From Salipaludibacillus sp. LMS25 (GTDB taxonomy: Bacteria; Bacillota; Bacilli; Bacillales; Salisediminibacteriaceae): DNA of 64,000 nt. The translations under genes were made by a program, and so were the position numbers. Below the pieces are notes generated by a model. That model was not told the origin of the DNA, searched no databases, and saw nothing but the letters and a program-made list of their open reading frames with translations. Positions 10,458 to 63,796 of this stretch are shown in pieces; the first letter of the stretch is position 1, and each line of letters opens with the position of its first letter. Location of the stretch: contig NZ_CP093299.1 in NCBI RefSeq assembly GCF_024362805.1, forward strand, positions 1,736,001 to 1,800,000. The letters run 5' to 3'.

Positions 10458-10473
10458 TTACTGTAAAACGAAT

Positions 10474-12870: not shown

Positions 12871-12878
12871 TCACGTTA

Positions 12879-16382: not shown

Positions 16383-16391
16383 TTAATCCAC

Positions 16392-16421: not shown

Positions 16422-16502
16422 TAGTGGTTTGCTTAATATTTGTCAAATGATAATTGTTTTTTGATAAATTATTTGATATTGTTTGCGTAAGAGGTGAGTA
16501 CT

Positions 16503-16931: not shown

Positions 16932-16956
16932 TAGCTGTCGTCCGCTATGTTACATG

Positions 16957-16996
16957 AAAAGATACGAGAAGAGCTCCCCCTTATCGTATCTTTTTT
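16957..16996 (+). terminator. Terminator after the MarR gene
   Basis: Stem AAAAGATACGA / TCGTATCTTTT followed by more T, 25 bp downstream of the MarR stop. Confidence 0.85.
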
Positions 16997-17031
16997 CAGA
17001 TGTCTTTCAGCATAGGAAACTAACTAGATTT

Positions 17032-17194
17032 TTTATCCCACTCTTAAGGGGCAGTAAAACCAACCCCCACCTCAAAACTTAAGAAGATCGAAACGTTTAG
17101 GTGGGGGATAAACTGCCCCTAAAGGTCCCATAAGTTAAACGAACAATCAGTGGGGGATGAAGGAAAACTCCCCCTGATTGAAGCTTAGCTTTAT
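17032..17194 (-). repeat. Interspersed structured repeat, copy 2 (minus orientation)
   Basis: Reverse-strand copy of the five-member family: read on the minus strand it starts ATAAAGCTAAGCTTCAATCA and ends AAGAGTGGGATAAA. Both hairpins are preserved. It sits between the MarR terminator and the stop of the ABC ATPase gene. Confidence 0.88.
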
Positions 17195-17208
17195 GGTAGG
17201 TCCCTAAC

Positions 17209-17871: not shown

Positions 17872-18542
17872 CGCTTATTATCTCCTTTAAATTCATAGTG
17901 ATTAACTAGCCGACTTAATAGAACGTAAGACATGAAAAGAATGATAAATTTCCCTACGAAAACGAGTAACGTATTTTCTAACACGTCTATGGATCCCGCT
18001 ACAAACAAGCTGACATACAAGTTGTGAGCAGAACCTATTTGCAAGAATAATAAGGTTATAATCACGCTGAAATAAACCCAAGACTTACTGACATACAGTA
18101 ACAGCAAGCCGACAACCACATTGCCCCAAAATAGGAAGGTTAATAAATAAGTGATAAAAACAAGTATGATCGCTTTAATCTCACCTATGTTTAAGGGGAG
18201 AGAGAATATAAGATTGACTACTAGCATTAAACTCGTTAATAAACTCACAACACCCAGTAGTTCCAACTGGATTTTCTGTAAAAATGCTTTACGGGAGCTT
18301 CTTACAACAAGATAGGGACCTAGTGAAAAAAGCTCATCTACCTTATTCATAATGAAAAAGACGAAGAGGGCTTGAATACCTAAATTTAATACGAGTAAAA
18401 AAGTAGATACATGCCCTGTTGCCCAATCTACCCCCGCAAGCCCTTGAAAGACTGCCGAAAAACCAGACATATCTGTTGTTTTTACAGACGCGAAATTAAT
18501 TAGCGACATAATGAGTAACGTCCAGATGATATGTTTTCTCAA
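17868..18542 (-). CDS. ABC-2-like membrane protein
   Basis: 224 residues, about six hydrophobic segments. The start is TTG at 18542, which overlaps the stop of the upstream gene in a TTGA arrangement and has AAGGAGAT in front. A longer frame beginning at 18620 runs 27 codons into the preceding gene and is unlikely. I recognise no specific family signature. It is most likely a permease half of the exporter powered by the 17209 ATPase. Confidence 0.75.
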   Translation of the reverse strand: MRKHIIWTLLIMSLINFASVKTTDMSGFSAVFQGLAGVDWATGHVSTFLLVLNLGIQALFVFFIMNKVDELFSLGPYLVVRSSRKAFLQKIQLELLGVVSLLTSLMLVVNLIFSLPLNIGEIKAIILVFITYLLTFLFWGNVVVGLLLLYVSKSWVYFSVIITLLFLQIGSAHNLYVSLFVAGSIDVLENTLLVFVGKFIILFMSYVLLSRLVNHYEFKGDNKR

Positions 18543-19177
18543 TTTAATATCTCCTTGCGTTTCCCTATATAATAAATAAAATAAATTAAAATAGGTGTTA
18601 CAAATGATAGCGTCGTCCAATACGTCTTTATTAACACTGAATCATCTATCATATACGTAAAAAAAACAACCCCGTGGTAGGTAATTAGTAAAACGAAACT
18701 TATGACTATATTTATAAATAGAGAGAGGATTTTTTTATTCGTTATGAGATAGACCAGAGCATACGTCATATAAACAAATAGGCAATATAGCATGAATTTT
18801 AAAAGAGGTGCTATCAACGACAGATTCAGCTCTATCGCTAATCCCTTAGCGAAGGCAACACTTAAAAGAACAGTTAGCGTACTTATCAAAAACACAACAC
18901 TGATAAGTATGCCATATGTGATAATTTTAATGGGGAGTTTCGTCGTGTAACGACTAACTAAAAGTGGATTAAGAAACTCCTTCCTTGTGGCATAAAGAAA
19001 TAACACGAAAAAAATACTCGTATTGAACAGTAATTTTTGTGGTCTCATTAATAGCTCTTCAAACATGAGATGATCGAATGTTTGAACTGCTGTTACTTCT
19101 ATGAATTGGACAGTAACAAACACGAGCGTTACCGTATAAAATAGAAGCCATATATAAGTTCCCTTATTGAAAATCAT
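18539..19177 (-). CDS. ABC-2-like membrane protein
   Basis: 212 residues with about six predicted membrane helices and a short basic C-terminus (GKRKEILN). It overlaps the genes on both sides by about 4 bp, showing translational coupling. No catalytic or binding motif is visible. It may pair with the 17868 product to make the membrane channel of the exporter. Confidence 0.75.
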   Translation of the reverse strand: MIFNKGTYIWLLFYTVTLVFVTVQFIEVTAVQTFDHLMFEELLMRPQKLLFNTSIFFVLFLYATRKEFLNPLLVSRYTTKLPIKIITYGILISVVFLISTLTVLLSVAFAKGLAIELNLSLIAPLLKFMLYCLFVYMTYALVYLITNKKILSLFINIVISFVLLITYHGVVFFTYMIDDSVLIKTYWTTLSFVTPILIYFIYYIGKRKEILN

Positions 19178-20058
19178 AGTAAATAACTCTTTTCATATTT
19201 TTTAATATTCGTTATAGATAGAATAAGTAAGATGATGATTAACAGTGAGGGAAGTGTTACTACGGAGAAGACAAAGCTTTGAAAACCTGCATCTGATGCT
19301 TGATAAAAATAAATACCTAGCAGGTAATGATCGCTCACAAAATACCATGTGGCTTGATAGACCGAATAACCTAGCTTATATAAGACACTGCCCGAAAACG
19401 ATGAGACAATCAACGTCACAAAATAAAATATAAATGGCATAATTTGTAGTAAATATTTATTCTTCACAACATGAGTTAATAATGACGTAGCCGAAACAAC
19501 AAGACATATGTAGATTATTAGAAGAATGATATGGCCTAGCATCATTAAAAGATGATATTCTCCATTTACCTCACCTAATCCCGTTATGAGAAAGTCCGAG
19601 TAACCTCCCCATAGTATTACGCTTAAAAGAGCTAATAAACTAAAGTAACCTAAAATAAATGTAATGATATATAGACATTGGGCTGTAAGTAAAGATAAGA
19701 CGTATTTTGTATATCCCATCTTTGAGACCATGATGGCGCCCATCCCTGCATTTATATAATAGTAGGTTACCGCACAAAGGTGTATACCAAACCCAATAAG
19801 TAAAATGACCACAAATACAATATAAAAGTCGGGTGAAAATAAAAAACGATCTAAAAAAGCCATCCCATTATAGCCTTCAAGGGTAAGCTTAGCACCTTCT
19901 ATATTTAAATCTGCAGGATTTAAAGCAATTTGCTCTTTCCAATCATTTTTTTCCATGTGTGTCATGTAATAACTGATTATCACAGGAAGAGAAATGGCTA
20001 TCAGAATAAGTATATTAAAACGGGATTTTATGTAGCGTAAATACTCGTGTTTTATCAT
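19174..20058 (-). CDS. ABC-2-like membrane protein, first gene of the four-gene operon
   Basis: 294 residues: a positively charged N-terminus (MIKHEYLRYIKSRFN), a first helix, a roughly 55-residue extracytoplasmic loop, then five more helices. This is the usual layout of ABC-2 permeases with a large first loop. AAGGATGG precedes the ATG at 20058. The promoter should lie in 20059-20485. Substrate unknown. Confidence 0.78.
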   Translation of the reverse strand: MIKHEYLRYIKSRFNILILIAISLPVIISYYMTHMEKNDWKEQIALNPADLNIEGAKLTLEGYNGMAFLDRFLFSPDFYIVFVVILLIGFGIHLCAVTYYYINAGMGAIMVSKMGYTKYVLSLLTAQCLYIITFILGYFSLLALLSVILWGGYSDFLITGLGEVNGEYHLLMMLGHIILLIIYICLVVSATSLLTHVVKNKYLLQIMPFIFYFVTLIVSSFSGSVLYKLGYSVYQATWYFVSDHYLLGIYFYQASDAGFQSFVFSVVTLPSLLIIILLILSITNIKKYEKSYLL

Positions 20059-46537: not shown

Positions 46538-49826
<3,289 letters not shown>

Positions 49827-49926: not shown

Positions 49927-49944
49927 CTTAATCAGTTACGATCC
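49916..49944 (-). promoter_or_regulatory. Ribonucleic antiterminator (RAT2) for the PTS gene
   Basis: A 29-nt element reading GGATCGTAACTG, ATTAA, GCAGGCGTAACC on the minus strand. It closely matches the length and layout of known LicT/BglG-family RAT sites. It starts at the stop codon of the antiterminator gene. Confidence 0.85.
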
Positions 49945-50780
49945 TATTTTTCGGATGCTAATTTATTCAGATGTAATGTCAGATACACAATTTCTTCATC
50001 GGAAATCATCCAATTATGTTGATTCTCTAAAAACTCTTTAATTTTAACCGCACAGCTGTAACTATTAGTATATTGTAATTTTACAACATTCAGTAACGAG
50101 GATGTCTCTTCTGACACCACTTCATGATTTAATTGTCGCTTAATAAAATATCGAATATGAGTAATAAACCGTGTGAAATAAAAAGATTTCTCATTAAACT
50201 CACAGCCATAGTGATATTTAATAATGTTGGTAATACTCTGAATAATCTTCACAATAAATACTGTTTCTTCCATACCGTCTCTTGTACCTAAAGAATTCAC
50301 AAAATGCAATGTTATAAAAGCAGCTTCTTGTTCGGGTATTTCAATCCCGGTTCTTTCTTGCATAAGCCCAACAGCCTTAAGTGCCGTTGAATACTCCCTA
50401 CCATATAGCTGTTTGATTTCCCACTCCAATGCTGAACGAAAGCTTATTCCTTGCTTTGCTCGGGTCAATGCAAAACTAACATGATCTGCTAACGCAAAGA
50501 GTGCTGATTCATTTATTTTATTGCCAAATTCATCTTCATACAGTTGTATGATTTCACTTGCTAGTTCTATATCCTTTACGTCAATTCGTTTTAAAAGAGA
50601 CTCAAGTTCACGTGCAGTATCTTTGTTTTCTAAAACGAATTTTTTGGTTATATTGCTATCTTTAAGGCTATCACCTGCCTTAATTCCAAACCCGAGCCCT
50701 TTCCCCATAACGATTTCTTCCACTTGATCGGCATTTTTTACTAAGACGACATTATTATTAAATACTTTTATGACTTGCAT
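49944..50780 (-). CDS. licT: BglG/LicT-family transcription antiterminator
   Basis: 278 residues from the ATG at 50780, preceded by GAGGAGG; the longer frame to 50867 overlaps the leader and is unlikely. The N-terminal co-antiterminator RNA-binding domain (about 1-56) reads MQVIKVFNNNVVLVKNADQ and later GKGLGFGIKAGD. Two PRD domains (about 65-170 and 175-278) have the conserved histidines in ALADHVSFAL, FITLHFVNS, THIRYF and YLTLHLN. The protein is phosphorylated by PTS and binds RAT hairpins to prevent termination upstream of the beta-glucoside genes and its own gene. Confidence 0.95.
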   Translation of the reverse strand: MQVIKVFNNNVVLVKNADQVEEIVMGKGLGFGIKAGDSLKDSNITKKFVLENKDTARELESLLKRIDVKDIELASEIIQLYEDEFGNKINESALFALADHVSFALTRAKQGISFRSALEWEIKQLYGREYSTALKAVGLMQERTGIEIPEQEAAFITLHFVNSLGTRDGMEETVFIVKIIQSITNIIKYHYGCEFNEKSFYFTRFITHIRYFIKRQLNHEVVSEETSSLLNVVKLQYTNSYSCAVKIKEFLENQHNWMISDEEIVYLTLHLNKLASEK

Positions 50781-50816
50781 TTTAAAAACCCTCCTCTCTT
50801 TTAGGTACTTCATCAA

Positions 50817-50903
50817 CAAAAAAAGACATAACCTAAAAAAGCGGGAGCACTCTGTCACACGGGACATAAATACATTGTGCTTAAGCTTTAGTGGTTACGC
50901 CTG
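50817..50903 (-). terminator. Conditional terminator in the licT leader
   Basis: On the minus strand CAGGCGTAACC pairs (with wobbles) with AGGTTATGTC, followed by TTTTTTTG. The first arm overlaps the RAT1 hairpin. Confidence 0.75.
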
Positions 50904-51304: not shown

Positions 51305-51832
51305 TTAACAAGGCGATTTGTTTTTCACGTACCATTGTAACGCGTGTTTTTCAATTTCCTTAATAAGCCCCTCTTTGCCAGACATATAAGCTACAATATT
51401 ATAGGGGTACCTCTTTGCCAGTTCATGCTTTAGATCACCATACTCTTTTTTCTTTTCAGGGTAGGCTGTAAGATAGTCACGAAATGCTAGATGGCGTATA
51501 ATATCATTATTTCCGTGTTGATAAACATGAACATGATGAGTTCGATTATCTCCGCCTTTTTGAAAATAACGCCTTTCTTGTATCCCATTCTCCCCCTTTG
51601 GCTCATAACCAATCGCCATCATGTCTTCGTTATATGCCTCAACACTTTCAATATTTTTTACGACAGGCATCATATCAATAATTGGTTTCGCTCTTAATCC
51701 GGGCACGGCTGTGCTGCCAATATGATGAACTTCAATGACTTGGTCCCCAAATATCCCAGATAACTTTTTTGATTCTTCTTCAAACAATAAAGACCAATTT
51801 TCATTAAACGGCTTTACCTCCACTTTCCTCAT
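51305..51832 (-). CDS. GrpB-family (UPF0157) nucleotidyltransferase-like protein
   Basis: 175 residues. VKPFNENWSLLFEEESKKL and HHIGSTAVPGLRAKPIIDMM are the family hallmarks; the latter includes the GST and DMM motifs of the nucleotidyltransferase fold. RTHHVHVYQHG and IIRHLAFRDYL follow in the expected order. Family members are widely distributed but have no settled role. The gene appears to be monocistronic. No unusual change was noticed. Confidence 0.9.
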   Translation of the reverse strand: MRKVEVKPFNENWSLLFEEESKKLSGIFGDQVIEVHHIGSTAVPGLRAKPIIDMMPVVKNIESVEAYNEDMMAIGYEPKGENGIQERRYFQKGGDNRTHHVHVYQHGNNDIIRHLAFRDYLTAYPEKKKEYGDLKHELAKRYPYNIVAYMSGKEGLIKEIEKHALQWYVKNKSPC

Positions 51833-52511: not shown

Positions 52512-53402
52512 TTAAAAAACAGCTTCACTTACTGAAATAAATGCGCTGAGTAATGGTGTAAGATTTTTATCTTTATGCCACGAGATAAAATGATATATGT
52601 CATGCTCTTTCCCTTGGGCCCAATCAATGAATCTTAATTCATCTTTCTCAACTTCTTTTTTCACCGCTTCATAGGGTAATAGGGCGATTCCTAGATCGGA
52701 TTTCACACAGTTTTTCAAAGTTTCAATGTTGGTAATTTCGAATGTAGAGTTGAATGTAATCTTGTGATCTGAAAGCATACCTTCAAGTAAATTTCTATAA
52801 GAACACCCTTTCTCAGTTAAGATCAGGGTTTCTTCAATTAAATCTTTTAATTTTAGATTTTCAAGCTGGGTCATTTTATTAACAGGAGAAGCAACAAAAA
52901 CCAACTTCCCTTTTGACAATTTAGAGACCTTTATATTATTCCATTCAATAGAATCTTCCCCAAATATAAAAGCAAAATCCAAATTACCACTCTGAAGCTC
53001 TGATTGGATGTCATCATATTTATGGATAGGTTTTATAATTACTTTTACTTTTGGAAATAAGATTCTCAATTCTTTCAATACATCAGGGAGCTTATAAGCA
53101 CATTGACTTTCAGTTGCTCCTACTACAATAGTACTTGTCATATTTTTATCGTAATTAATATCTTCAATTGCCGCTTGATATTGGGAAATGATCGTGTCGG
53201 AATATCCCCTGAATTTCTCTCCAAATGCCGTTAACACTAATTTATTTCCTAGCCTCTCGAACAAGTTTACACCTAATTCGGTTTCTAAGCTTTTAATTTG
53301 AGAAGTGACCGTGGATTGAGCATAGTTTAAAATTGCAGCAGCCTTAGTAAAACTTAACGTCTTACTTGCAACCTGAAATGTGGTCAATTGCTTTATATCC
53401 AT
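52512..53402 (-). CDS. LysR-family regulator, likely controlling the LysW cluster
   Basis: 296 residues. The start ATG at 53402 has GGGAGTGG upstream; the frame extends 17 codons further. The N-terminal winged helix (MDIKQLTTFQVASKTLSFTK, NYAQSTVTSQIKSLETELG) and the effector domain (about 90-290, including VGATESQCAYKLPDVLKEL) are typical. It diverges from the LysW-type gene at 53537, with about 134 bp between the two starts. LysR proteins usually regulate the divergent operon, so this is the likely pathway regulator. The effector is unknown. Confidence 0.9.
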   Translation of the reverse strand: MDIKQLTTFQVASKTLSFTKAAAILNYAQSTVTSQIKSLETELGVNLFERLGNKLVLTAFGEKFRGYSDTIISQYQAAIEDINYDKNMTSTIVVGATESQCAYKLPDVLKELRILFPKVKVIIKPIHKYDDIQSELQSGNLDFAFIFGEDSIEWNNIKVSKLSKGKLVFVASPVNKMTQLENLKLKDLIEETLILTEKGCSYRNLLEGMLSDHKITFNSTFEITNIETLKNCVKSDLGIALLPYEAVKKEVEKDELRFIDWAQGKEHDIYHFISWHKDKNLTPLLSAFISVSEAVF

Positions 53403-53536
53403 TTCTTTACCACTCCCATCATAATTCCCGATAGAATCCACCGGTTTTTTCATCTGGCTTACAAAGCCATTATATCATAGAATATACTTATCAATACTAA
53501 AAAGTGGAAAAATTGAAAAATAAGGAGGATTTTACT

Positions 53537-53710
53537 ATGACGAATTCTAGTTGTTTAGTATGCCAATCCAAAATCGAATTGACTGATGAATCATTTGTTG
53601 GTGAAATTATTGAATGTCTTGGTTGTGGGGAAGAACATGAAGTTATAGAAGAGAATGGATCGTTAACACTTGGCTTAGCTCCTGAAATTGAAGAATCTTG
53701 GGGAGAGTGA
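53537..53710 (+). CDS. lysW: LysW-type amino-group carrier protein
   Basis: 57 residues, preceded by AAGGAGG and a suitable 8-nt spacing. It carries two zinc-binding pairs, CLVC (6-9) and CLGC (27-30), and a very acidic C-terminus ending EESWGE, where the family has EDWGE. In LysW proteins the terminal glutamate gamma-carboxyl forms an isopeptide bond with the alpha-amino group of the substrate, protecting it during the pathway. The next genes encode the ligase, reductase, kinase and hydrolase expected to act on the carrier. The protein is short and soluble. Confidence 0.93.
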   Translation: MTNSSCLVCQSKIELTDESFVGEIIECLGCGEEHEVIEENGSLTLGLAPEIEESWGE

Positions 53711-53722
53711 CGTGATGCACTT

Positions 53723-54598
53723 ATGAAAATTTTAATGTGCGTTACTAAACTTAGAGATGAAGAAAGAATGATTATCAGCCAGCTAAACCAAAAAAACATA
53801 ACGGTGAAAGTTATCTTAGATTCTATGGGTCTTCCATTGGAGGACATTTTCAACGGAAGGTTTGATTTAGCGCTTATCCGCTGCCTGTCTCAGACGGAAG
53901 GTAGGAAAAGGGCTCACATTTTAGAAATGGCCGGTTTGAAAACAATCAATAATTCTAGTGCCATTAGTGTCTGTACAAATAAAATTTTACAAGCTCTATT
54001 ATTTCAAAAAAACACTATTGCTCAACCTAATTATATGGTTGCATTTACCCCTGCAGATCTAATGAGAAGTTCATTAGTATTAGGTACGCCATTTCTAATC
54101 AAGCCCGCGACCTCGTCATGGGGGCGGGGCATCAGTTTAATAGACAACCAAAAATGTTTAGATGCTTGGTTAGCAGCTAGAGAATCTTTAGATGTGAAAA
54201 ATAAAGAATTCCCAGTGCTCGCTCAGGAATTTATTAACAAAGGAAATTTTGATATTCGTGTAGTCATTATTGGGACAAGGCCTGTCGTTGCTTTCAAAAG
54301 AGTGTCTGATGATTCTTGGAAAACAAACACACATTTAGGCGCCTCTGTCATCCCTCTAGCAATTGATTCTGAAATAGAAGAAATAGTGTTACAAGTAGTG
54401 AAAGCTATTGGGGCAGGTGTATACGGCTTAGATTTATTATATGATCTTGAAAAAGAAGAATATATCGTCTGTGAAATCAATCAAAACCCTGAGTTTGCTG
54501 AATCATCGAAAGAACATAAAGTAGATATTCCTTTTTTGCTAGCAGGTTATGTGGAAGAAGTCATTAATCAGGAACGAAAGGAGAAAATCTATGGATAA
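53723..54598 (+). CDS. lysX: LysX-type ATP-grasp ligase (amino acid to LysW)
   Basis: 291 residues. RimK/ATP-grasp fold: an N-terminal domain (MKILMCVTKLRDEERMIISQ), then PFLIKPATSSWGRGI as the phosphate-loop region, ending with metal-binding acids in VCEINQNPEFAES and GVYGLDLLYD. It should join glutamate or 2-aminoadipate to the carrier C-terminus with ATP. I cannot tell which substrate it prefers. It begins 12 bp after lysW and overlaps the following gene by 8 bp. The ribosome site is weak, so translation may be coupled to lysW. Confidence 0.9.
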   Translation: MKILMCVTKLRDEERMIISQLNQKNITVKVILDSMGLPLEDIFNGRFDLALIRCLSQTEGRKRAHILEMAGLKTINNSSAISVCTNKILQALLFQKNTIAQPNYMVAFTPADLMRSSLVLGTPFLIKPATSSWGRGISLIDNQKCLDAWLAARESLDVKNKEFPVLAQEFINKGNFDIRVVIIGTRPVVAFKRVSDDSWKTNTHLGASVIPLAIDSEIEEIVLQVVKAIGAGVYGLDLLYDLEKEEYIVCEINQNPEFAESSKEHKVDIPFLLAGYVEEVINQERKEKIYG

Positions 54599-55217
54599 CA
54601 ATAACAATAAACAATTCCAAATGTCTTTTGTCTTATTACGCGTTTTAAATTCTGGGATCATCATGAGCATAGAAAAAAATGAAAAAGAAATAACTGGTCT
54701 TGAAAAAATATTGGCTAACATTACAACGCTACCTTATGTTTCTGTTTTTAATAGCTATACAGGTGCTTTACACGGCGCCCTTCATGGCAAAAATATTGGG
54801 TACGGAGATTCTGTTACTTTATCCAATCCAACAAATAAAGAAGAGAAGTTTTTAAAATGGTTAGGCATATCTAATTTAAAGGATAAAGAGACAGACGTTT
54901 TTGAGAGACTCTCGGTAAATTGGGAAAACATAGGCGATTTTGACAAAAACTTTATTACTCAATCTACTTTAGTGGTGGATTTAACGGATTTAGGATTTGG
55001 ACCATGTGCCGCCTTAGCCACAGATGAGAGAGAGGTGTGGGAGAAAGCTGAACGGCTTAAAATATTTGGAGCCTTTGATTTACGTACGATGTGGACCCAA
55101 GAAGAGAGCCATCCCGATCTTCAGCCCGGAATCCAATTTAACTACCGGATTAGTCCCTTGGTAGCTGCTTGTACCAAATTATCCTTAATAAAAAGAGGTG
55201 TAGCTGTTGAGAACTGA
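54591..55217 (+). CDS. Short degenerate DegT-fold protein, probable inactive partner of the aminotransferase
   Basis: 208 residues from the ATG at 54591 (AAAGGAG upstream), overlapping lysX by 8 bp. Residues about 50-75 (FNSYTGALHGALHG, then GYGDSVTLS) resemble the SGTxALHxAL and GDEV parts of the DegT/DnrJ/EryC1/StrS family. The C-terminal segment GIQFNYRISPLVAACTKLSL resembles the YNYRMSExQAA region. The central part that would hold the cofactor-binding aspartate and catalytic lysine is missing. It overlaps the intact DegT gene by 11 bp, so it may serve as a subunit or regulatory partner. This is inferred from weak similarity. Confidence 0.6.
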   Translation: MDNNNNKQFQMSFVLLRVLNSGIIMSIEKNEKEITGLEKILANITTLPYVSVFNSYTGALHGALHGKNIGYGDSVTLSNPTNKEEKFLKWLGISNLKDKETDVFERLSVNWENIGDFDKNFITQSTLVVDLTDLGFGPCAALATDEREVWEKAERLKIFGAFDLRTMWTQEESHPDLQPGIQFNYRISPLVAACTKLSLIKRGVAVEN

Positions 55218-56526
55218 TTTTATTAAAAAACCCCTTGATTTCCCCTCAGACGATATGATTCATGAAAACCTTGCTTATTTTGGAGGGAAAGCTATCCTTC
55301 CAGCAGATAACAGAAAGACAAACTTCCCATATATAACAAAAGAAGATATGATGCAAATATTAATTTCTATTCAACATGATCCAACTAAAGTTATTGATGA
55401 TTTTACTAATAGATATCGGAACTATGTTGGTTCAAATTATGCTATCCCAACTGCTAGTGGCACATCAAGTTTACATCTTGCTCTCGTAGGAGCTGGTGTT
55501 CAACCAGGTGATGAAGTGCTCATTCCAAACTTTACATTTATTGCTACAGCTCAAGCGGTTGTTGCTGCTAAGGCCATTCCTGTATTTACGGATATTGATC
55601 CAGATACATATTGTATGGATGTAACACAGGTGGAGAAATTGATTACTCCTAAAACAAAGGTTATTATGCCTGTCCATGTCCACGGGCTTCCTGCTGACCT
55701 TCCTCAATTGCAAAAAATATGTCATAACTATCAATTAAAACTTGTCGAAGATGCTTCACATGCACATTCAGCTTCAATCAATAATAAGATTTGTGGGTCT
55801 ATTGGAGATGCCGCTGGGCAAAGTCTAATGGCCGATAAAAACTTTCCAGTTGGTGGAGAAGGGGGAATGGCATTCTTTAAAAAAGAAGAAGATTATATGC
55901 GAGCGTTAGAATTCCTCAGTGACTCTGGGATTGATTACAGTATGTCGTGGATAGCAGCAGCTTTCGGCATTAGCCAGCTGGAGAGACTTCCTTATTACGA
56001 TAAAATAAGAGCACGCAATGCTAAGTTTTTAAGTGATGCTTTAGAAAATACTGATTTATTTAGCCCTCCATATGTTCCTGAAGGTTATAAACACAGCTAC
56101 AACATGTATCGAATAAAAATAAACCCTGGCGCAAAAGGATTAGATGATTTAGAAGATTATAAGGTTAAAGAAGCCATCCAACAAATTATTATGGAAGAAG
56201 GCGTTTTTGCAAGAGAGTGGCAAAACAGACCTATTCCTGGACATCTCCCTTTCCAAAACAAAAAAGGATTTGGAAATCAATATCCTTTTTGTCTAAGTAA
56301 CGTAAAACGGACTTATAAGGTTTCAGATTACCCAAAAACCTTAAATATGTTTCGAAATACGTTAACAATCTGTAGAGAACTACGATCCCCAATAGAATAT
56401 GAAAGAATCCAATCTTATGCACTAGCGTTCAAAAAAATTGATCAAAATCCAGACAAGATTCGAAGGGTTGTAGAAGAACTTGGAGATATCAAACGACCAT
56501 ATGAAAAGGACGCTAGATTAGGATGA
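55207..56526 (+). CDS. DegT/DnrJ/EryC1/StrS-family PLP aminotransferase
   Basis: 439 residues, starting at a TTG (55207) with GAGGTG 6 nt upstream. TASGTSSLHLALVGAGVQPGDEV, PNFTFIATAQAV, LVEDASHAHSA and the lysine in MADKNFPVGGEGG are the family signatures. The lysine corresponds to the PLP-binding residue. These enzymes transaminate keto groups of sugars or sugar-like chains. In this operon a ketone made by the transketolase from a LysW-bound aldehyde is the attractive substrate. Overlaps lysY by 4 bp. Confidence 0.93.
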   Translation: MRTDFIKKPLDFPSDDMIHENLAYFGGKAILPADNRKTNFPYITKEDMMQILISIQHDPTKVIDDFTNRYRNYVGSNYAIPTASGTSSLHLALVGAGVQPGDEVLIPNFTFIATAQAVVAAKAIPVFTDIDPDTYCMDVTQVEKLITPKTKVIMPVHVHGLPADLPQLQKICHNYQLKLVEDASHAHSASINNKICGSIGDAAGQSLMADKNFPVGGEGGMAFFKKEEDYMRALEFLSDSGIDYSMSWIAAAFGISQLERLPYYDKIRARNAKFLSDALENTDLFSPPYVPEGYKHSYNMYRIKINPGAKGLDDLEDYKVKEAIQQIIMEEGVFAREWQNRPIPGHLPFQNKKGFGNQYPFCLSNVKRTYKVSDYPKTLNMFRNTLTICRELRSPIEYERIQSYALAFKKIDQNPDKIRRVVEELGDIKRPYEKDARLG

Positions 56527-57566
56527 GCTCAAACATAAAGGTGGCAATTTTAGGTGGTGGCGGTTTTGTTGGTATGGAAACTTACAGACTATTAAAGGAA
56601 CAAGCGGACGTTTCTATTGAGTTTGTTTCTTCCGAATCATTAGCTGGTCAACCTGTAGAGAAATATTATCGTATGCTCAACAGCAAAAATAAACAATTAA
56701 GATTTAAACCCGTTAACCATTTAGAAGAGGGGTTTGACGTCGTTTTCTCTTGCCTTCCAACGGGAATTTTACCAGCGTATATTGATGAAATTAAATCGAA
56801 ATCAAAGATCATTTTTAATGTAAGTGGTGATTATAGACTTACAGATCAGCAACAACTAGAAAAATACTATCCTCAATCCCTTAAAACAGACACATATTTA
56901 GAATCACAATATTATATCCCCGAATTTCATGAGCTTGATAAAAAAGCAAAAATTATTAATTTACCAGGGTGTATGGCTGTTGCTAGTATTTACTCTCTTT
57001 ATCCTCTTGTTGAACATAATATGATAGAGGGCAAAGTTGTCATAGATGCAAAAACAGGATCTAGTGGAGGTGGAAAGCGATCTTCAGAACACCCAGCAGA
57101 AAGAGCCCATAACTTACGCCCTCATAAAGTCCATGGTCACCGCCACCAACCAGAGATTTGTCATGCTTTCAAAAGTATGTTCGGGACTGAACTAGACCTT
57201 CAGTTTTCAACATACAGTTTAGATCTACCTCGTGGGATCATGGTAACGTCATACTCCCAATTGAAAAAAAATATTGCTGAGGTTGATGTGAAAAAAGCTT
57301 TCTATCAAGCTTATAAGGATAAGCCTTTCATCGAATATATAAAAGATAACAAGAGCGCGCGATTTAATCCGATGATTAAATCTACAGTAGGAACTAATAA
57401 GGTTGAAGTGGCAGCTTATTTAGATGGAAAACATTGTGTATCAATTTCTACATTAGACAATATGATTAAAGGCGCAGCTGGACAGGCTATCCAAGCATTT
57501 AATCACTATTTCGATTATCCGGAAATGCAGTCCTTGAATTTTAATAATGAAGGGATGTGGCCATAA
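56523..57566 (+). CDS. lysY: LysY/ArgC-type reductase (LysW-bound acyl-phosphate to semialdehyde)
   Basis: 347 residues. The N-terminal nucleotide site is ILGGGGFVGMETYRLL. The catalytic cysteine lies in NLPGCMAVASIYSLYPLV (near 148), and GSSGGGKRSSEHP and VHGHRHQPEI match the reductase family. The expected reaction is NADPH-dependent reduction of the gamma- or delta-phosphate on the LysW-linked amino acid to an aldehyde. The start ATG is within the last codons of the aminotransferase gene. All core residues are visible. Confidence 0.92.
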   Translation: MSSNIKVAILGGGGFVGMETYRLLKEQADVSIEFVSSESLAGQPVEKYYRMLNSKNKQLRFKPVNHLEEGFDVVFSCLPTGILPAYIDEIKSKSKIIFNVSGDYRLTDQQQLEKYYPQSLKTDTYLESQYYIPEFHELDKKAKIINLPGCMAVASIYSLYPLVEHNMIEGKVVIDAKTGSSGGGKRSSEHPAERAHNLRPHKVHGHRHQPEICHAFKSMFGTELDLQFSTYSLDLPRGIMVTSYSQLKKNIAEVDVKKAFYQAYKDKPFIEYIKDNKSARFNPMIKSTVGTNKVEVAAYLDGKHCVSISTLDNMIKGAAGQAIQAFNHYFDYPEMQSLNFNNEGMWP

Positions 57567-59446
57567 TTAGTCAATTATATGTGGTGAAAGTAGGCAGCAG
57601 CACCGCGCTCTCTTCCAATCACACCGTTTATGAAGAGATTCAAAGAATCGCAAGTAAAGGAAATAAAATTCTTCTAATTGTAGGAGGCGCAGAAGGAATT
57701 CATAAATACTACGAGCAAATACAACGAGAAATTCCTTTCTTGGAGCTAAGTCATGGCGGCCATGCGAGGTATTGTCCACAAGAAGAAATGAACCATATCT
57801 ATAACGCTTATAACCAAATAATGATGCCATTTGTTAAAGACAAACTACAAGATCAAGGCTTGAAAATATACGTACAGTGCGCTGGGGATCATGGATTAGT
57901 AACAGGTAAACAAGGCCCTCCACTTAAAGTAATTTATAATGGTAAAAAAAGGATAGTGCGAGATTCTTTGTATGGCACCTACTATGATTGTGACACACAG
58001 TTTATCCAATCCTTATTTTACAGCTTTGATGTTGTGTGCTTGACGCCCCCCATTCAAAATATAACTAAACCTCAGCAATACCTTAATATTGATGCTGATA
58101 TGCTCGCAGCTCATTTATCTGTTCATATGAACGCACATCACTTGAGGTTTGTTACTGGAAGTAATGGGATATTAAAGAATGTGGATGAGCCAACGTCCAC
58201 TATCGCTAATATTTACTTAGATGATCCTTTGGAATTCGTTAAAGGAAGAATGAAACAAAAAGTTCGTGCTGCACAATTAGCCATAAAAGAAGGAATCAGT
58301 GATGTTTGCATAATGGGGCCTTTCATGGAATATTCTCACGCCACTTGGTTTTGGAATATGGAAAACGCTAATGATAACTATGATGTATTGAATAAAATGA
58401 TTCGCATTCCTTCCGTTTCCCGTAATGAAGAAGAACTAATTCATTACCTTTTCCATAACATTCGTATCCCAGGTGTTACCACCCGTATAGACAAAGCAGG
58501 GAACATTGTATTTGAAAAGGGAGAAGGTGAACACACTCTTTTATTATTAGGGCATGTGGATACAGTGCCTTATTTGTGGAAAGTAACCAGCGATAAAGAG
58601 ATGATTACGGGAAGAGGAGCGGTAGACGCTAAAGGTTGTTTTTCAAATTTCATTCAAATGTTAAAAGAGATCGACGTTCCAAAAAGCGGTAAACTAATGG
58701 TGGTTGGCGCTGTGGAAGAAGAAGTATCTTCCTCAGCAGGGGCCTACTATGTACGAGATCATCACCGTGCCGATGCCGTTATCATTGGTGAACCCAGTGG
58801 AATCCATAACCTGACTTTAGGCTATCATGGGTTACTTAAGTTGGGAATCACAATTCAAAAAAATCAAAAGCATAGTGCATCAAAAGATAATGTAAGTGTT
58901 GCTGACCACTTCTATGTCATAAAAAATGAGCTAGAAACAAGAGTCAGAGAAGTCGATCCCGATCATGTGGCTACCACTACAATGGTCAATCAATATAAGA
59001 AAGAGGACACAGATATCTTAGAAGCGATCCTAAACTTCAGAATCTCACCAGGTGTTGATGTAGATTATCTCAATAAATTAAATCTGACCATGTCTGGTGA
59101 AGCCTCAATTAAAGTCTTACGAGCAACGCCAGGATATATGAATAAAAGAAATTGCCCATTAGTCAAGTCTTTTGCCAAAAGTTTTGCTTCTCAAAAGATA
59201 AAAGTCAAGTATTTAAAGAAAACGGGCACTAGCGATATGAATACGCTAGCAACTAAATGGGTAAATACGCCAATTGTTGCCTATGGCCCTGGTGACTCAA
59301 ACCTCGATCATACAAATGAAGAATTTCAGTTATATGATGAGATAAATCAAGCGCAGACCATATTAAAAGATGCTATTGACCATTGGTTTTCTCAATTTTC
59401 GGAGGTGGAGAAAAATGATTATCGATCAAAAGCTGTCGAACATTGA
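57557..59446 (+). CDS. lysZ-lysK: Fusion of LysZ-like amino acid kinase and LysK-like M20 hydrolase
   Basis: 629 residues, starting at a GTG (57557). Residues about 1-265 are an amino acid kinase (VVKVGSSTAL; GGAEGIHKYYEQ; MKQKVRAAQLAIKEG), like LysZ/ArgB. Residues about 275-629 are an M20 metallopeptidase: GHVDTVP, TGRGAVDAKGC, the base in GAVEEEVSSS, GEPSG and SNLDHTNEEF, like LysK, which frees the product from the carrier. I know these as separate proteins in lysine and arginine pathways, so joining the first activation step to the final release step is unusual. Both parts look intact. It overlaps lysY by 10 bp. Confidence 0.88.
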   Translation: MAIISQLYVVKVGSSTALSSNHTVYEEIQRIASKGNKILLIVGGAEGIHKYYEQIQREIPFLELSHGGHARYCPQEEMNHIYNAYNQIMMPFVKDKLQDQGLKIYVQCAGDHGLVTGKQGPPLKVIYNGKKRIVRDSLYGTYYDCDTQFIQSLFYSFDVVCLTPPIQNITKPQQYLNIDADMLAAHLSVHMNAHHLRFVTGSNGILKNVDEPTSTIANIYLDDPLEFVKGRMKQKVRAAQLAIKEGISDVCIMGPFMEYSHATWFWNMENANDNYDVLNKMIRIPSVSRNEEELIHYLFHNIRIPGVTTRIDKAGNIVFEKGEGEHTLLLLGHVDTVPYLWKVTSDKEMITGRGAVDAKGCFSNFIQMLKEIDVPKSGKLMVVGAVEEEVSSSAGAYYVRDHHRADAVIIGEPSGIHNLTLGYHGLLKLGITIQKNQKHSASKDNVSVADHFYVIKNELETRVREVDPDHVATTTMVNQYKKEDTDILEAILNFRISPGVDVDYLNKLNLTMSGEASIKVLRATPGYMNKRNCPLVKSFAKSFASQKIKVKYLKKTGTSDMNTLATKWVNTPIVAYGPGDSNLDHTNEEFQLYDEINQAQTILKDAIDHWFSQFSEVEKNDYRSKAVEH

Positions 59447-60230
59447 TCCTCTAAACTTGGAAAGGTTAAAAGGTTTATCCAAAAAGGCGAGAGAGACCAT
59501 TGTAGATATTGGAGCTACTGAAACCGGTTGTCATCTAGGTGGAAGTCTTTCTGTAATAGATCTGTTAATAGCGTTATTTGATAACTATTCCTTAAATAAT
59601 AATAACCAAATTGTATTAAGCAAAGGGCATGCTGCCGCTGCATTATATTCTGTCCTCTATGTTCAGGGTGTCTTGAAAGAAAACCCTGCCCAAAATTATG
59701 GCAAACACAATTCTTTATTAACTGGCCATCCCAATCACAAAATAAAAGGTATTCCATATTCAACTGGAAGCCTGGGGCACGGCATTCCTTATGCTGCCGG
59801 CTGGGCATTGGCTCAGAAATTAAAAGGATCCACAGGCCTTGGAATAGCCATATGTGGAGATGGGGAACTTCAAGAAGGACTTTGTTGGGAAACGTTCCAA
59901 GTCGTTCAGGCGAAACAGATTAATAACTTTATGTGTGTCGTTGACATAAATGGCGCTCAAAACGATGGTCTCACTTCGCATATCTCCCCTTCAGAAAATA
60001 TTAAAGGAAGATTTGAAGCATTTGGGTTTCACACGTTGGAAGTTAATGGCCATGATTTTAAAGAGATAATTCAAGCCTTACAAGAGATTAACAATTGCTC
60101 AAAGCCATTAGCTATTTTAGCCCATACGATTAAAGGAAAAGGTCTACCAAGTATTGAAGGTAATCCTAAGGCTCACTACTTAAAAATCCCCCATCGCTTA
60201 AAAAACAAATGGAAAAGGAGTATTATATGA
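59415..60230 (+). CDS. Transketolase, N-terminal (thiamine diphosphate-binding) subunit
   Basis: 271 residues. The start ATG at 59415 follows GGAGGTGG; it overlaps the preceding gene by 32 bp. Motifs are GCHLGGSLSVIDLLIALF, LSKGHAAAALYS, GSLGHGIPYAAGWALA and the TPP-binding GDGELQEGLCWE followed by DINGAQND. It is half of a split transketolase; the other half is the next gene. Split forms occur in archaea and in specialised-metabolite clusters. It should transfer a two-carbon ketol group to the LysW-bound aldehyde. Confidence 0.93.
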   Translation: MIIDQKLSNIDPLNLERLKGLSKKARETIVDIGATETGCHLGGSLSVIDLLIALFDNYSLNNNNQIVLSKGHAAAALYSVLYVQGVLKENPAQNYGKHNSLLTGHPNHKIKGIPYSTGSLGHGIPYAAGWALAQKLKGSTGLGIAICGDGELQEGLCWETFQVVQAKQINNFMCVVDINGAQNDGLTSHISPSENIKGRFEAFGFHTLEVNGHDFKEIIQALQEINNCSKPLAILAHTIKGKGLPSIEGNPKAHYLKIPHRLKNKWKRSII

Positions 60231-61141
60231 CTTTATCAGGACGAGATGCCTATCGTGACGAATTAACAAAGATCGCGGAATATAATGATCATATTCTATG
60301 TTTAGAAGCTGATTTAGGGGGATCTAATCATAAGTTCGAAGCACAGTTTTCTGATCGTTTTTTTAATATGGGGATTGCAGAAATGACAAGCATTGATATG
60401 GCTGCTGGATTAGCAGAGGCTGGCTATATCCCCTTTTTTTCTACATTTGCTTCATTTGCTTCTTTACGATCGGCTGAAAGTATTAAATTAGCAATGGGAT
60501 ACATGGGGAAGAACATTAAAATTGTAGCGCCTTATGGAGGGGTTTCAGGTGGATGGTTTGGAACCACTCATCATTCCCTCGAAGATATTGCAATTGTAAG
60601 GTCGTTTTTAAACATTAAGATTGCTTGCCCATATGGCGAAGAAGATACACGACGAGTCATTCGAGAGGCTGCACTGTCCCCTCACCCTTACTATGTTCGA
60701 CTTTCTAGAAATGATGCTTTTGAAAGTTTAGAAAGAGAAAGTGATGCTGCTTTTTCTACTATAGTGAATCAAAGGGGAACTAGCAAACTGTGTTTAATTT
60801 CCATTGGGGAGCAAGGGACTGAGTTGTGCAAAAAAATGGAAGATATGTATCCGGAAGTTTCTCATATTCATTTATGTTATGTGGATCATTCAAGTTTAAA
60901 GGATGTAATTGATCAATTAGAAGGGCTTGGGGAACTATTTCTTGTAGTTGAAGAACACCGATTAGCTGGCGGAACAGCTTCCTTATTATCTGTTCTTCTA
61001 CCTAACAAGCGAGTGTACTCGTTTGACTGTGGTGAATTATGGCCCTTATATGGAGGAAATCATAAAGAGACCCTTTCTCACTTAAAGTTTGATTCTGAAA
61101 ACTTAGAGAAACGAATTACAAACCTTTTGATGACCCATTAA
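60227..61141 (+). CDS. Transketolase, C-terminal (pyrimidine-binding) subunit
   Basis: 304 residues from the ATG at 60227, preceded by AAGGAG and overlapping its partner by 4 bp. MGIAEMTSIDMAAGLAEAG carries the catalytic glutamate, SLRSAESIKLAMGY and YGGVSGGWFGTTHHSLEDIA follow, and the C-terminal domain ends LSHLKFDSENLEKRI. It completes the enzyme with the preceding gene. The expected role is elongation of the carrier-bound substrate by C2. The donor sugar is unknown. Confidence 0.93.
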   Translation: MTLSGRDAYRDELTKIAEYNDHILCLEADLGGSNHKFEAQFSDRFFNMGIAEMTSIDMAAGLAEAGYIPFFSTFASFASLRSAESIKLAMGYMGKNIKIVAPYGGVSGGWFGTTHHSLEDIAIVRSFLNIKIACPYGEEDTRRVIREAALSPHPYYVRLSRNDAFESLERESDAAFSTIVNQRGTSKLCLISIGEQGTELCKKMEDMYPEVSHIHLCYVDHSSLKDVIDQLEGLGELFLVVEEHRLAGGTASLLSVLLPNKRVYSFDCGELWPLYGGNHKETLSHLKFDSENLEKRITNLLMTH

Positions 61142-61169
61142 GCTTTTAATAGAAAGGGTGTTTGGAACA

Positions 61170-62405
61170 TTGGAAACTCAAAAGATAGTTGCTTTTGTAG
61201 AGCCAAGTTTTTATGGGGTAGATTTTGTTGAGAGAACTTTCCGAAAAGGATGTAAAGTTATTGCCATAGGCTCTTCACAAAAAAACCCTAAAAAATATGG
61301 CTATGAAAACTATTATCATGACTTTTTAATCGCTGATATTAGAGACCCAAAATCTATTTATTCTGCAATTAAAAAGTCACCATATGATGGCAAACTAGAT
61401 GCTTTAATTCCTGCTACAGACTATGCTTCACACTACACCGCTGAGGTGGCTGAATGGCTGTCATTGCCAACGATTTCCTCATCTGCTGCTCACCATGCGC
61501 GAAATAAAGAGTTAGCACGCCATGCATATAAAAAGAACAAAGTACCAAGTGCTCTTTTTGCGAAAGTGTCAAGTCCTGAGGAAGCGTGTATAGCCGCATC
61601 TAACATTGGTTATCCCGTTGTCTTAAAACCAACTAATTGTGCAAGCAGCCAAGGTGTGTCCTTTATTACCAATCAAGAAGAACTGCTTCATGCATTTCAT
61701 AAATTAAGAGAGTTCAAAAAAACATATATGGGGTTTGATGTCAGTAATGATTATTTAATTGAAGAATACTTGGAAGGACCAGAATTTAGTGTAGAACTTT
61801 TTCTTAAAGATAAAGAGGTTGTTTTTTCATCAGTGACGGAGAAGGAAACCTCTGATTTACCATTCTTTGTTGAAATTTCCCACACCGTACCTACCTCTAC
61901 CCATTTGGAAAAAAGAGAAGACCTTGTTGAGGTTAGTGTACAGGCTGTTAAAGCGATTGGAATTGATAAAGGGCCTAGCCACGTTGAAATAAAATTGACC
62001 AAATCTGGGCCAAAGATAATTGAAGTTAACGGGAGGCCTGGTGGGGATCAAATTGCTTCTCAATTGCTATTTAATACTTATGGACTGGATATTTTTGAAG
62101 AGACCGTAAATGTCTATTTAAATTTGCCCATAAAAAAGGATTTCCCAGTTAAAAGGGCCACTTCTATTGCTTTTTTGACCTCTCAAAATAACGGGAAAAT
62201 TCTAAGCATACACGGACTTAATCATATCAAGAATGATCCTTCAGTTATCAATTATGACATAAATGTTAAACCTGGGGATTTCGTCAAAATTCCTGAAAGT
62301 TCAGATGATCGGCTTGGATATGTAATTGCTACAGGAGAAAATCCTAGTGAAGCCAAAAAGAAAGCCCATGATTTGATTAATTGTATTAAATTAGAGTACG
62401 CATAG
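61170..62405 (+). CDS. ATP-grasp ligase (carboxylate-amine ligase), second in the cluster
   Basis: 411 residues. I use the TTG at 61170 because AAAGGGTG lies about 9 nt upstream; a GTG at 61158 sits on that site and is less likely. The N-terminal part (about 1-110) is a Rossmann-like domain, followed by the ATP-grasp core: YPVVLKPTNCASSQGVSF, YLIEEYLEGPEFSVEL, GPSHVEIKLT and IEVNGRPGGDQ. It resembles L-amino acid ligases. It is probably used to join the pathway amino acid to another amino acid, but the partner is not predictable. Confidence 0.85.
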   Translation: METQKIVAFVEPSFYGVDFVERTFRKGCKVIAIGSSQKNPKKYGYENYYHDFLIADIRDPKSIYSAIKKSPYDGKLDALIPATDYASHYTAEVAEWLSLPTISSSAAHHARNKELARHAYKKNKVPSALFAKVSSPEEACIAASNIGYPVVLKPTNCASSQGVSFITNQEELLHAFHKLREFKKTYMGFDVSNDYLIEEYLEGPEFSVELFLKDKEVVFSSVTEKETSDLPFFVEISHTVPTSTHLEKREDLVEVSVQAVKAIGIDKGPSHVEIKLTKSGPKIIEVNGRPGGDQIASQLLFNTYGLDIFEETVNVYLNLPIKKDFPVKRATSIAFLTSQNNGKILSIHGLNHIKNDPSVINYDINVKPGDFVKIPESSDDRLGYVIATGENPSEAKKKAHDLINCIKLEYA

Positions 62406-62416
62406 TTAGTTAGTAG

Positions 62417-62455
62417 AGCCCTCATTCATTCTTGTGAATTTTTGAGGGTTTTTTA
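62417..62455 (+). terminator. Terminator at the end of the LysW operon
   Basis: Stem CCCTCA / TGAGGG with an inner ATTCA / TGAAT stem, followed by TTTTTT. It lies 12 bp after the ATP-grasp stop. Confidence 0.9.
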
Positions 62456-62581
62456 TGTATGCCAACTATTTGAAAATACCAACGTTTTTTTCGATCGTAA
62501 CGATTCAAATTATTCGTTTTACAGCCTGAAATCCCTACGATACTATTTTTATAAAGCTTAATTTAATGAAGAGGTGATGGA

Positions 62582-63796
62582 ATGTCCGTTTTAACCAGGA
62601 AAAACTTTTTATTTTTTTTCCTTGCAGATATCATATCAGGATTCGGCGTTGGAATGAGTACCATTGGGGCTAATTGGTATTTATTAGATGAAACTGGGTC
62701 AACAAGTGCAGTCGGTATAATGTTAGCTCTTAACGTCATAGCTGGCTTTCTTGTTTCCCCGTTGACTGGTATTCTTACAGATAAATTTAATCGAAAAGGA
62801 GTCATCCAATTAACGTTTATTCTTCGCGCAGTGGCAATTGGGATATTAACAGCCGCTTTTATATTGGATGGATTTACCCTCATATACATTTATTTATTCG
62901 CTATCATTAATGGGATTGGCTGGAGCATCTATATGTCCGCTTCTCGTAGTCTTATTCAAGAATTGTTACCTGAAAAAGACTTATCCAAAGGAAATTCTTT
63001 AATTGAGATCAGTTTACAAGTAGGAATGTTTATGGCAGGTGCAGCTTCTGGGTTTATTTATAAGTTTGCTGGCTTTGAAACCATACTATTAATTAATTGC
63101 TTAATGTTTGTAACGAGTAGTATATTTATGATTTTCGTTAAATATCAGTCCATTTTGTTAGTAGATAAGGATGAAGGGTTTCTGCAATCCTTTAAGAAAG
63201 GCATTCATTATTTACATTCACATCAATTAACGTTTCTCGTAGGATTTGTAGCGATCGTTCCTTTAGTATGTACGATGATTTTTAATGTAGTCTTACCGGA
63301 ATATGTGAGTAGTACTTTAAATGCAGACTCCATCGTCTTTGGCTTCTCAGATATGGCTTATGGCATTGGGGGATTGATCTCAGGTTTTATAGCAGCTCCT
63401 TTTGCGAAAAAAATCACTAAAAATAAAGCTATAACTGTTATCTTCTCGTTGGCAGTTCTCACTTTAGTGGGATTATCCTTTAATTCGCTCGTGATCATTA
63501 TATACCTAGGAAGCTTCTTAATAGGCTTCTCTAACTCCTCTATAAGAATTATTATGAACACGATGCTCATGGAAATTGTCCCTAAACCTTTAATGGGAAG
63601 AGCAATGTCAGTATGGATGGGCATTTCCTTATTTCTTCAAGCGGTCTTTGCAGGCGGGATGGGGCTACTTATCGATGTTTTTTCTCCAGGTGTAGGTTTT
63701 ATTTGCATGGCTGGATTAATGTTGTTTGGCTTAGTCCTGCATTATTTTGTCTCCAAACGTGACATTAAAACGAATTCCCGTTATGAGGTGGTTTAA
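62582..63796 (+). CDS. MFS exporter adjacent to the cluster
   Basis: 404 residues with about 12 membrane helices, preceded by AGAGGTGATGG. The N-terminus (NFLFFFLADIISGFGVGMST, LTDKFNRKGVIQ) is the EntS/MefA-like exporter type, different from the 25323 pump in detail. It sits 126 bp after the operon terminator on the same strand, so it has its own promoter. Likely role: export of the cluster product. The next gene overlaps by a base or so (63797). Confidence 0.85.
   Translation: MSVLTRKNFLFFFLADIISGFGVGMSTIGANWYLLDETGSTSAVGIMLALNVIAGFLVSPLTGILTDKFNRKGVIQLTFILRAVAIGILTAAFILDGFTLIYIYLFAIINGIGWSIYMSASRSLIQELLPEKDLSKGNSLIEISLQVGMFMAGAASGFIYKFAGFETILLINCLMFVTSSIFMIFVKYQSILLVDKDEGFLQSFKKGIHYLHSHQLTFLVGFVAIVPLVCTMIFNVVLPEYVSSTLNADSIVFGFSDMAYGIGGLISGFIAAPFAKKITKNKAITVIFSLAVLTLVGLSFNSLVIIIYLGSFLIGFSNSSIRIIMNTMLMEIVPKPLMGRAMSVWMGISLFLQAVFAGGMGLLIDVFSPGVGFICMAGLMLFGLVLHYFVSKRDIKTNSRYEVV

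Follow-up and report, generated by a model that had tools for sequence, protein, structure and literature searches.

Gene content and order of the locus

The stretch of 64,000 bases analysed here (the window) comprises bases 1736001-1800000 of the genome of Salipaludibacillus sp. LMS25, a single contig of 4,525,667 bases, and carries at positions 52512-63796 a cluster of genes around a LysW-type amino-group carrier protein (AmCP). A divergent LysR gene faces an operon that ends at 62405 and reads LysW, LysX, small DegT, DegT, LysY, a LysZ-LysK fusion, two transketolase subunits and an ATP-grasp ligase (Table 1). All genes named in an earlier sequence-only reading of the window were present, as families and open reading frames (ORFs), in the order and span it gave. 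The near-continuous, overlapping arrangement that it described holds from LysX to the second transketolase subunit, where adjacent genes overlap by 4-32 bases with the starts set in this analysis. That reading was right about the ligase and the major facilitator superfamily (MFS) gene, and missed a small DegT-like gene (54591-55217) as well as an FMN reductase gene, which starts at 63797 directly after the MFS gene and ends 369 bases past the window (full gene, L056:1797-2369).

Table 1. Features of the carrier-protein cluster, in window positions
Feature	Position	Strand	Basis
LysR-type regulator	52512..53402	-	Pfam HTH_1 and LysR_substrate; start set by homologue L057
LysW amino-group carrier protein, 57 aa, C-terminus EIEESWGE	53537..53710	+	Pfam and PDB LysW matches
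LysX/ArgX-type ATP-grasp ligase	53723..54598	+	Pfam LysX_preATP_grasp and RimK
Small DegT-like subunit, 208 aa, partner of DegT	54591..55217	+	PDB 8y96_C match; AAAGGAG at 54577-54583
DegT pyridoxal phosphate (PLP) aminotransferase, catalytic subunit, TTG start	55207..56526	+	Pfam DegT 223.6 bits
LysY/ArgC-type acyl-phosphate reductase	56523..57566	+	TIGR01850 271.8 bits, cut-off 233.6
LysZ-LysK fusion: carrier-bound amino acid kinase (~residues 1-262) and product-releasing M20 hydrolase	57557..59446	+	AA_kinase and Peptidase_M20
Transketolase N subunit, thiamine diphosphate-binding	59415..60230	+	Transketolase_N 101.7 bits; start after GGAGG, probable
Transketolase C subunit, pyrimidine-binding	60209..61141 (start may be 60227)	+	Transket_pyr 92.8 bits
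ATP-grasp enzyme, L-amino-acid-ligase type	61158..62405 (start GTG 61158 or TTG 61170)	+	LAL_C2
Rho-independent terminator-like hairpin and T-run	62415..62452	+	Sequence and fold
MFS exporter, EntS/MFS_3-like	62582..63796	+	MFS_1 128.2 bits, MFS_3 69.2 bits
NAD(P)H:FMN oxidoreductase, 190 aa	63797..64000, cut by window end	+	FMN_red 72 bits

Carrier, carrier-modifying enzymes and transketolase

The start of LysW was set at 53537 from the sequence, with AAGGAGG upstream. The protein scored 43.3 bits against Pfam Zn_ribbon_LysW (cut-off 27) and ends in ESWGE, the E(D/E)xWGE-like terminus of such carriers. The final WGE was found in 37 of 40 aligned rows, the remaining three rows being in the wrong frame. 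LysX had its best PDB match in 3vpb, ArgX with LysW, and its motifs SWGRG and NPEF were kept in 38 of 38 rows; the available portion of PMC10433800 describes a role of the SWGR motif in LysX/ArgX ligases. The catalytic Cys of LysY (PGC motif) was kept throughout (40/40 rows), and the LysZ-LysK fusion scored 293 bits against TIGR01902, dapE-lys-deAc (cut-off 163).

DegT matched chain A of PDB 8y96 (E 6.2e-180) and kept its PLP lysine motif in 40/40 rows; small DegT, borderline for Pfam DegT (19.7 bits, cut-off 19.8), matched chain C of the same entry (E 9.2e-60). Because all three entries 8y96-8y98 hold both chains of an orthologous DegT pair, the aminotransferase very probably works as a complex of DegT with the small DegT-like subunit, which amends the proposal in the sequence-only reading that DegT transaminates the ketone. 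Chain A and DegT of Prodigiosinella confusarubida, whose locus (L043) has the same module, are identical over 437 residues; we found no publication for the 8y96 structures in the open-licence full-text literature. The second PDB match of DegT was 8gyh, which we take to be Fic25. The GDG motif of the transketolase N subunit was kept in 35 of 36 rows. For the C subunit, Transket_pyr was the only Pfam match at 0.001, and the split transketolase PDB 6yaj was matched with E 2e-32.

The last enzyme of the operon and the exporter

The ATP-grasp enzyme at the end of the operon scored 75 bits against LAL_C2 (cut-off 29.4), and its structure was predicted with a mean pLDDT (predicted local distance difference test) of 93.4 from 34 aligned sequences. 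Among the PDB folds closest to this model, the L-amino-acid ligases (LALs) BL00235, BacD and RizA made up six of the seven best, with query TM-scores of 0.74-0.82 at 16-21% identity; the GAR (glycinamide ribonucleotide) synthetase-like 4dim ranked third, and the model also matched other ATP-grasp enzymes, with 521 fold matches at 0.001. By its LAL_C2 domain and predicted LAL fold the enzyme is a member of the LAL class. It shares fold and LAL_C2 with BacD, BL00235 and RizA and differs from them in being tied to an amino-group-carrier core. This homology supports the earlier suggestion that the ligase conjugates the product, as an enzyme of this class could. The MFS protein scored 97 bits against EntS, under the cut-off of 324.

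Distribution and variants of the cluster

Scanning the transketolase C subunit against an 84,980-species genome collection yielded 46 loci. With small DegT, DegT, LysY, LysK and both transketolase subunits defined as the core, 39 of the 46 contained it, and among these 39 LysW was found in 37, LysX in 38 and LysZ in 39. Since the same block recurs in 39/46 loci fetched in this way, the cluster is real and not a product of chance. In all core loci but one (38 of 39), LysZ and LysK formed one ORF of more than 520 aa; the exception (L046) lies in a frameshift-rich genome. Core hosts are firmicutes, proteobacteria and actinobacteria; 23 of the 39 loci are titled Paenibacillus. The set also occurs in further Bacillaceae, Kroppenstedtia, a Clostridium metagenome-assembled genome and a Staphylococcus epidermidis plasmid. 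The sequence-only reading had suggested searching Firmicutes for co-occurring LysW, transketolase pair and LysK-fused kinase, and this set recurs across Paenibacillus, Bacillaceae and Kroppenstedtia. Its authoring model knew of no description of the set in Bacillus-type bacteria; we likewise found no paper in the open-licence literature, but the set is not confined to one Bacillus-type genome.

The ligase was present at 80 bits or more in 33 of the core loci, two of which, Chitinimonas and Chromobacterium, have ligases that are only 27-28% identical. Ligase and MFS exporter occurred together in 31/39, and in 27/39 the FMN reductase was present too (at least 45 bits). Actinobacterial loci have the same core genes and order as the window, and a Streptomyces camelliae plasmid carries the core with a permease and a short-chain dehydrogenase/reductase. 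In Chitinimonas (L041 10969-14797) and Chromobacterium (L047 10979-14774) the core is followed by the diverged ligase, a 452-460-aa protein and an MFS-type gene. This arrangement is a third cluster variant; the 452-460-aa protein (L041) had no Pfam or NCBIfam match, and its relatives are named hydrolase or amidohydrolase.

The seven loci outside the core set comprised L045, whose cluster is either incomplete or of another sort, a remnant (L050) and five loci with transketolase matches only (L051-L055). In the remnant (Heyndrickxia acidiproducens, L050 1978-6599), transketolase C, a split MFS gene and the ligase adjoin an IS66 transposase. In a further decayed remnant (genome G126, L058 7386-9259), fragments of LysK and then of MFS remain, with the FMN reductase ORF kept. 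The cluster is patchy among relatives of the host: with its own genome counted in each figure, matches came from 4 of 398 genomes at class level, 2 of 398 at phylum level, 2 of 35 within the family and 1 of 8 within the genus. The LysZ-LysK fusion was matched in 4 of 199 relatives' genomes, own included, one of these being a remnant with an internal stop. A protein search with small DegT returned 284 relatives at E 0.001, and an S. aureus-labelled protein cluster of 129 members (P0066) was among the matches listed. No small DegT was found in phage records.

Plasmid-borne copies and apparent movement of the module

At 1e-80, DegT matched 3 of 72,556 plasmid records. The whole ligase-type module lies on two plasmids, from Pseudalkalibacillus and S. 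epidermidis, and is complete also in the relatives of the window and in two enterobacteria (L042, L043). On the Pseudalkalibacillus plasmid it has the gene order of the window. The 54-kb plasmid of S. epidermidis NCCP 16828 (L073), a human isolate, carries the complete module at 6633-19092 in the order LysR, FMN reductase, MFS, a helix-turn-helix gene, LysW through transketolase, and ligase; a close-match search with this module returned only its own record.

Pairwise distances among ligases and among MFS exporters (34 loci), and among FMN reductases (30 loci), correlated with the distances seen for transketolase and for DegT (Pearson 0.92-0.96; none of 999 permutations reached this). Kroppenstedtia belongs to a family other than that of Paenibacillus. 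For its transketolase, DegT, ligase and MFS alike, the nearest relative was P. caseinilyticus, and the core tree placed Kroppenstedtia inside Paenibacillus (support 100). In the same tree the S. epidermidis plasmid, which sits on a very long branch, fell with the enterobacteria (support 99). These relationships suggest that the module travels as one piece.

Proposed pathway and product

Vazabitide is built through the same kinase, reductase, transketolase and aminotransferase steps as azinomycin. For azinomycin, a kinase, a reductase, a transketolase pair and an aminotransferase lead to 2,6-diamino-5,7-dihydroxyheptanoic acid (DADH), and a carrier route is suggested for vazabitide (available part of PMC9570651); AmCPs are described as making DADH for vazabitide A and s56-p1 in the portion of PMC9303977 at hand. 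The window has the combination that marks a DADH-type AmCP cluster, a transketolase pair and DegT together with the LysW set (defined from the available part of PMC9570651 and general knowledge). The identities of its genes, their intact catalytic motifs and their conserved co-occurrence are, at the level of sequence, plain from the matches given above.

We consider it probable (at roughly 0.68) that the cluster is a self-contained amino-group-carrier module, free of non-ribosomal peptide synthetase (NRPS), that makes DADH or a stereoisomer of it, joins it into a peptide through its own ligase and exports the peptide by the MFS carrier. LysX would load an amino acid, most likely glutamate, on the C-terminal Glu of LysW; LysZ would phosphorylate it and LysY reduce it to the carrier-bound semialdehyde. 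The two-subunit transketolase would then add a two-carbon ketol unit, the complex of DegT and small DegT would transaminate the ketone, and the LysK domain would release DADH or a stereoisomer. The LAL-type enzyme may join DADH to a second amino acid, the MFS carrier may export the peptide, and the FMN reductase may tailor the product or protect the cell. We infer substrate, stereochemistry, dipeptide, export and biological role from this gene set, and the C7 step from homology. The same homology supports the proposal of the sequence-only reading that the AmCP route leads to a DADH-type C7 diamino acid and not to lysine or ornithine.

We detected no NRPS among the cluster genes, and going through the ORFs and their lengths over 48-64 kb of the window and the 12 kb that follow it revealed none either. 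An LAL-type ligase is present; most simply, then, the product would be a DADH dipeptide that leaves the cell through the MFS carrier, by analogy with bacilysin. Its biological role would most likely be that of an antimetabolite-type antibiotic. A bolder version, to which we give somewhat less than even odds, is that this is an NRPS-independent, horizontally mobile module secreting a new class of DADH-dipeptide, antibiotic or metal-binding, and thus a carrier-protein counterpart of bacilysin.

Several observations weigh against this reading or limit it. LysW scored below the NCBIfam cut-offs for lysW (30.1 against 53.2 bits) and LysW/ArgW (53.9 against 75 bits), and LysX below that of TIGR02144 (201.4 against 275.6 bits). 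These scores indicate homologues outside the lysine and arginine equivalogs, as expected for a secondary-metabolite AmCP. The NPEFxxS stretch of LysX presumably sets the choice between Glu and aminoadipate. As placed with the available part of PMC10433800 and general knowledge, this putative specificity stretch matches neither archaeal signature, and because of this glutamate is proposed as the substrate by exclusion. The ligase has 173 relatives at 1e-30, with many genera among the matches listed, so it may have other jobs. Six of the 39 core loci, all actinobacterial, had no ligase at 80 bits; five of these have an amino-acid-permease-like protein instead (Pfam on L035), and the sixth (L038) ends just behind transketolase. 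The FMN reductase fell under 45 bits or was missing in 12 of 39, a sub-threshold match of 39 bits being seen in L031. Counts over the core loci are not independent, as 23 are from Paenibacillus and a single cluster protein served to retrieve the whole set, and the correlated distances could come from shared ancestry alone.

Alternative products

Lysine or ornithine synthesis on LysW, for which the presence of LysW, LysX, LysY, LysZ and LysK homologues would speak, is hardly tenable. A transketolase and DegT stand in the cluster in place of a LysJ/ArgD aminotransferase, and the cluster was found in only 1 of 8 genomes of the genus. Homocitrate synthase, one of the lysine-pathway genes that the sequence-only reading had called missing, had no match over cut-off in the whole host genome (best match 285 bits against 413.55); homoaconitase was not searched for. 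The host also has separate lysA and argC genes. We believe that aminoadipate is therefore an unlikely substrate and that the cluster does not serve to make lysine or arginine, and we ruled out the lysine/ornithine pathway on these grounds. Loading of alpha-aminoadipate by LysX, which would give a C8 homologue of DADH, has in its favour that NPEFxxS is unlike the ArgX signature as placed here. The lack of a homocitrate synthase over cut-off counts against it too, and the NPEFxxS stretch is identical in firmicute, proteobacterial and actinobacterial clusters, the last being of the kind reported to start from glutamate (available part of PMC9570651, and general knowledge); we regard this alternative as highly improbable. 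An alkylator of the azabicyclic, aziridine kind, to which ficellomycin, azinomycin and vazabitide A belong, would share the precursor route to DADH (same source), but aziridine formation there goes via sulfation of DADH. Neither sulfotransferase, acetyltransferase nor NRPS was found among the cluster genes, and the annotation of the S. epidermidis plasmid stretch lists none, which makes such a product very unlikely, if slightly less so than the C8 homologue. Less credible than either is a role in salt-loving Bacillaceae as a compatible solute or another house-keeping zwitterion. It would suit the close hosts Halobacillus, Gracilibacillus and Oceanobacillus, halophiles by name and general knowledge, but the cluster is also found in Paenibacillus, enterobacteria and an S. 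epidermidis plasmid, includes an exporter, and is rare in Bacilli (4/398 genomes, own included).

A metallophore, in which a DADH peptide would chelate metal, leave through the MFS carrier and be re-imported by an Opp/Dpp-type ATP-binding cassette (ABC) transporter as with opine metallophores, is unlikely, and has the most to be said for it. An SBP_bac_5 protein lies directly 5' of LysW on the same strand in 16 Paenibacillus-type loci, with gaps of 53-288 bases (script-set starts), and DppB/DppC-type permeases occur in 18-19 loci. The exporter is EntS/MFS_3-like, and a FecBCD-type siderophore ABC transporter, assigned by reading, lies ~8 kb downstream in the host genome (L056 10307-14327). Behind the cluster of Paenibacillus zeisoli (L020 14405-20829), CntK-like and CntL-like genes, an opine dehydrogenase, SBP_bac_5 and DppBC form an opine-metallophore operon. 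However, this is a single locus; L013 has only a lone nicotianamine-synthase-like (CntL-like) gene (18783-19622), ~4.8 kb downstream of its cluster, and the cluster genes of the window include neither CntL nor an opine dehydrogenase. Going by ORFs and annotation and a Pfam scan of some of the loci, we recognised neither an Opp/Dpp importer nor an opine-metallophore operon next to the cluster of the window, of its close relatives Litchfieldia and Halobacillus, or of the plasmids. In L059-L061, the three loci traced further upstream, the importer runs together with a luciferase-type monooxygenase, an acetyltransferase, DinB and an amino-acid ABC transporter, which looks like another operon (Pfam, L059). 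An Opp/Dpp importer adjoins the cluster in Paenibacillus-type loci and Kroppenstedtia, and we did not accept it as a general part of the module.

Relation to known systems

With vazabitide A and s56-p1 of Streptomyces the cluster shares the carrier-bound DADH route (PMC9303977, in part), and actinobacterial loci have the same core and order. An NRPS is fed there, whereas the window has an LAL-type enzyme, an MFS exporter and an FMN reductase instead. The azinomycin and ficellomycin systems have in common with it the kinase, reductase, transketolase pair and aminotransferase leading to DADH (azinomycin, PMC9570651, in part); for azinomycin N-acetyl glutamate is described in place of a carrier, and its sulfation and aziridine steps are absent from the window cluster. 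The LysW, LysX, LysY, LysZ and LysK chemistry is that of the Thermus, Sulfolobus and Thermococcus LysW pathways, from which the window differs in having no homocitrate branch, a transketolase and DegT, and a fused kinase-hydrolase. The orthologous cluster behind the PDB entries, Prodigiosinella confusarubida L043, combines LysR, FMN reductase, core, MFS and ligase as the window does, with DegT ~60% and small DegT 48% identical; its order differs from that of the window in that the FMN reductase comes first and MFS precedes the ligase.

The amino-group-carrier core was reportedly already stated to be widespread in bacteria in the vazabitide work of Hasebe (2016). The core is of a known kind, and the ligase-type end without an NRPS is what differs; we found no paper on the ligase-type module in open-licence full texts, a body that leaves most subscription papers outside. 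An antiSMASH label 'vazabitide A 4%' for a Bacillaceae genome (PMC12272613, available part) was rejected as evidence of this cluster, since it is attached to a linear azole-containing peptide (LAP) region.

Carrier-protein amino acid synthesis is known mainly from lysine and arginine pathways and from Streptomyces NRPS products. The present locus suggests that it has also been packaged as a portable module of a dozen genes with its own ligase and exporter. One such module sits on a plasmid that comes from S. epidermidis isolated from a human. Common genome-mining rules may miss clusters that have no NRPS or polyketide synthase genes. If our reading is true, soluble enzymes would be making a small peptide that lends itself to assay.

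Regulatory features and neighbouring genes

LysR homologues stand at the equivalent position in Litchfieldia (72% identical), Halobacillus (80%) and the Pseudalkalibacillus (66%) and S. epidermidis (34%) plasmids; none adjoins the cluster in Paenibacillus loci at 45 bits. The hairpin at 62415-62452, which stands between the biosynthetic operon and the MFS-FMN reductase pair, has a predicted energy of -16.3 kcal/mol (z -4.3), with none of 200 shuffles as stable. It was not among the terminators listed by a pattern scan, which found 4 in the window against 7.7 expected; the corresponding promoter scan found 34 against 40.4 expected. We found no inverted repeat in 53300-53560, and an Rfam scan of the window at gathering scores gave no match. 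In 14 of 27 Paenibacillus-type loci the palindrome TTATAAGGGATTNATTCCNTTATAAT (up to 6 mismatches) occurs within 160 bases 5' of LysW, where it is a possible operator; the window, Litchfieldia, Halobacillus and both firmicute plasmids lacked it. The palindrome overlaps a TATAAT box (e.g. L027 3169). Upstream of the cluster, the window has ordinary neighbours: a phosphotransferase system (PTS) EIIBCA transporter (47982-49826), a PRD/CAT-RBD antiterminator (49944-50867) and a GrpB-family protein (51305-51832).

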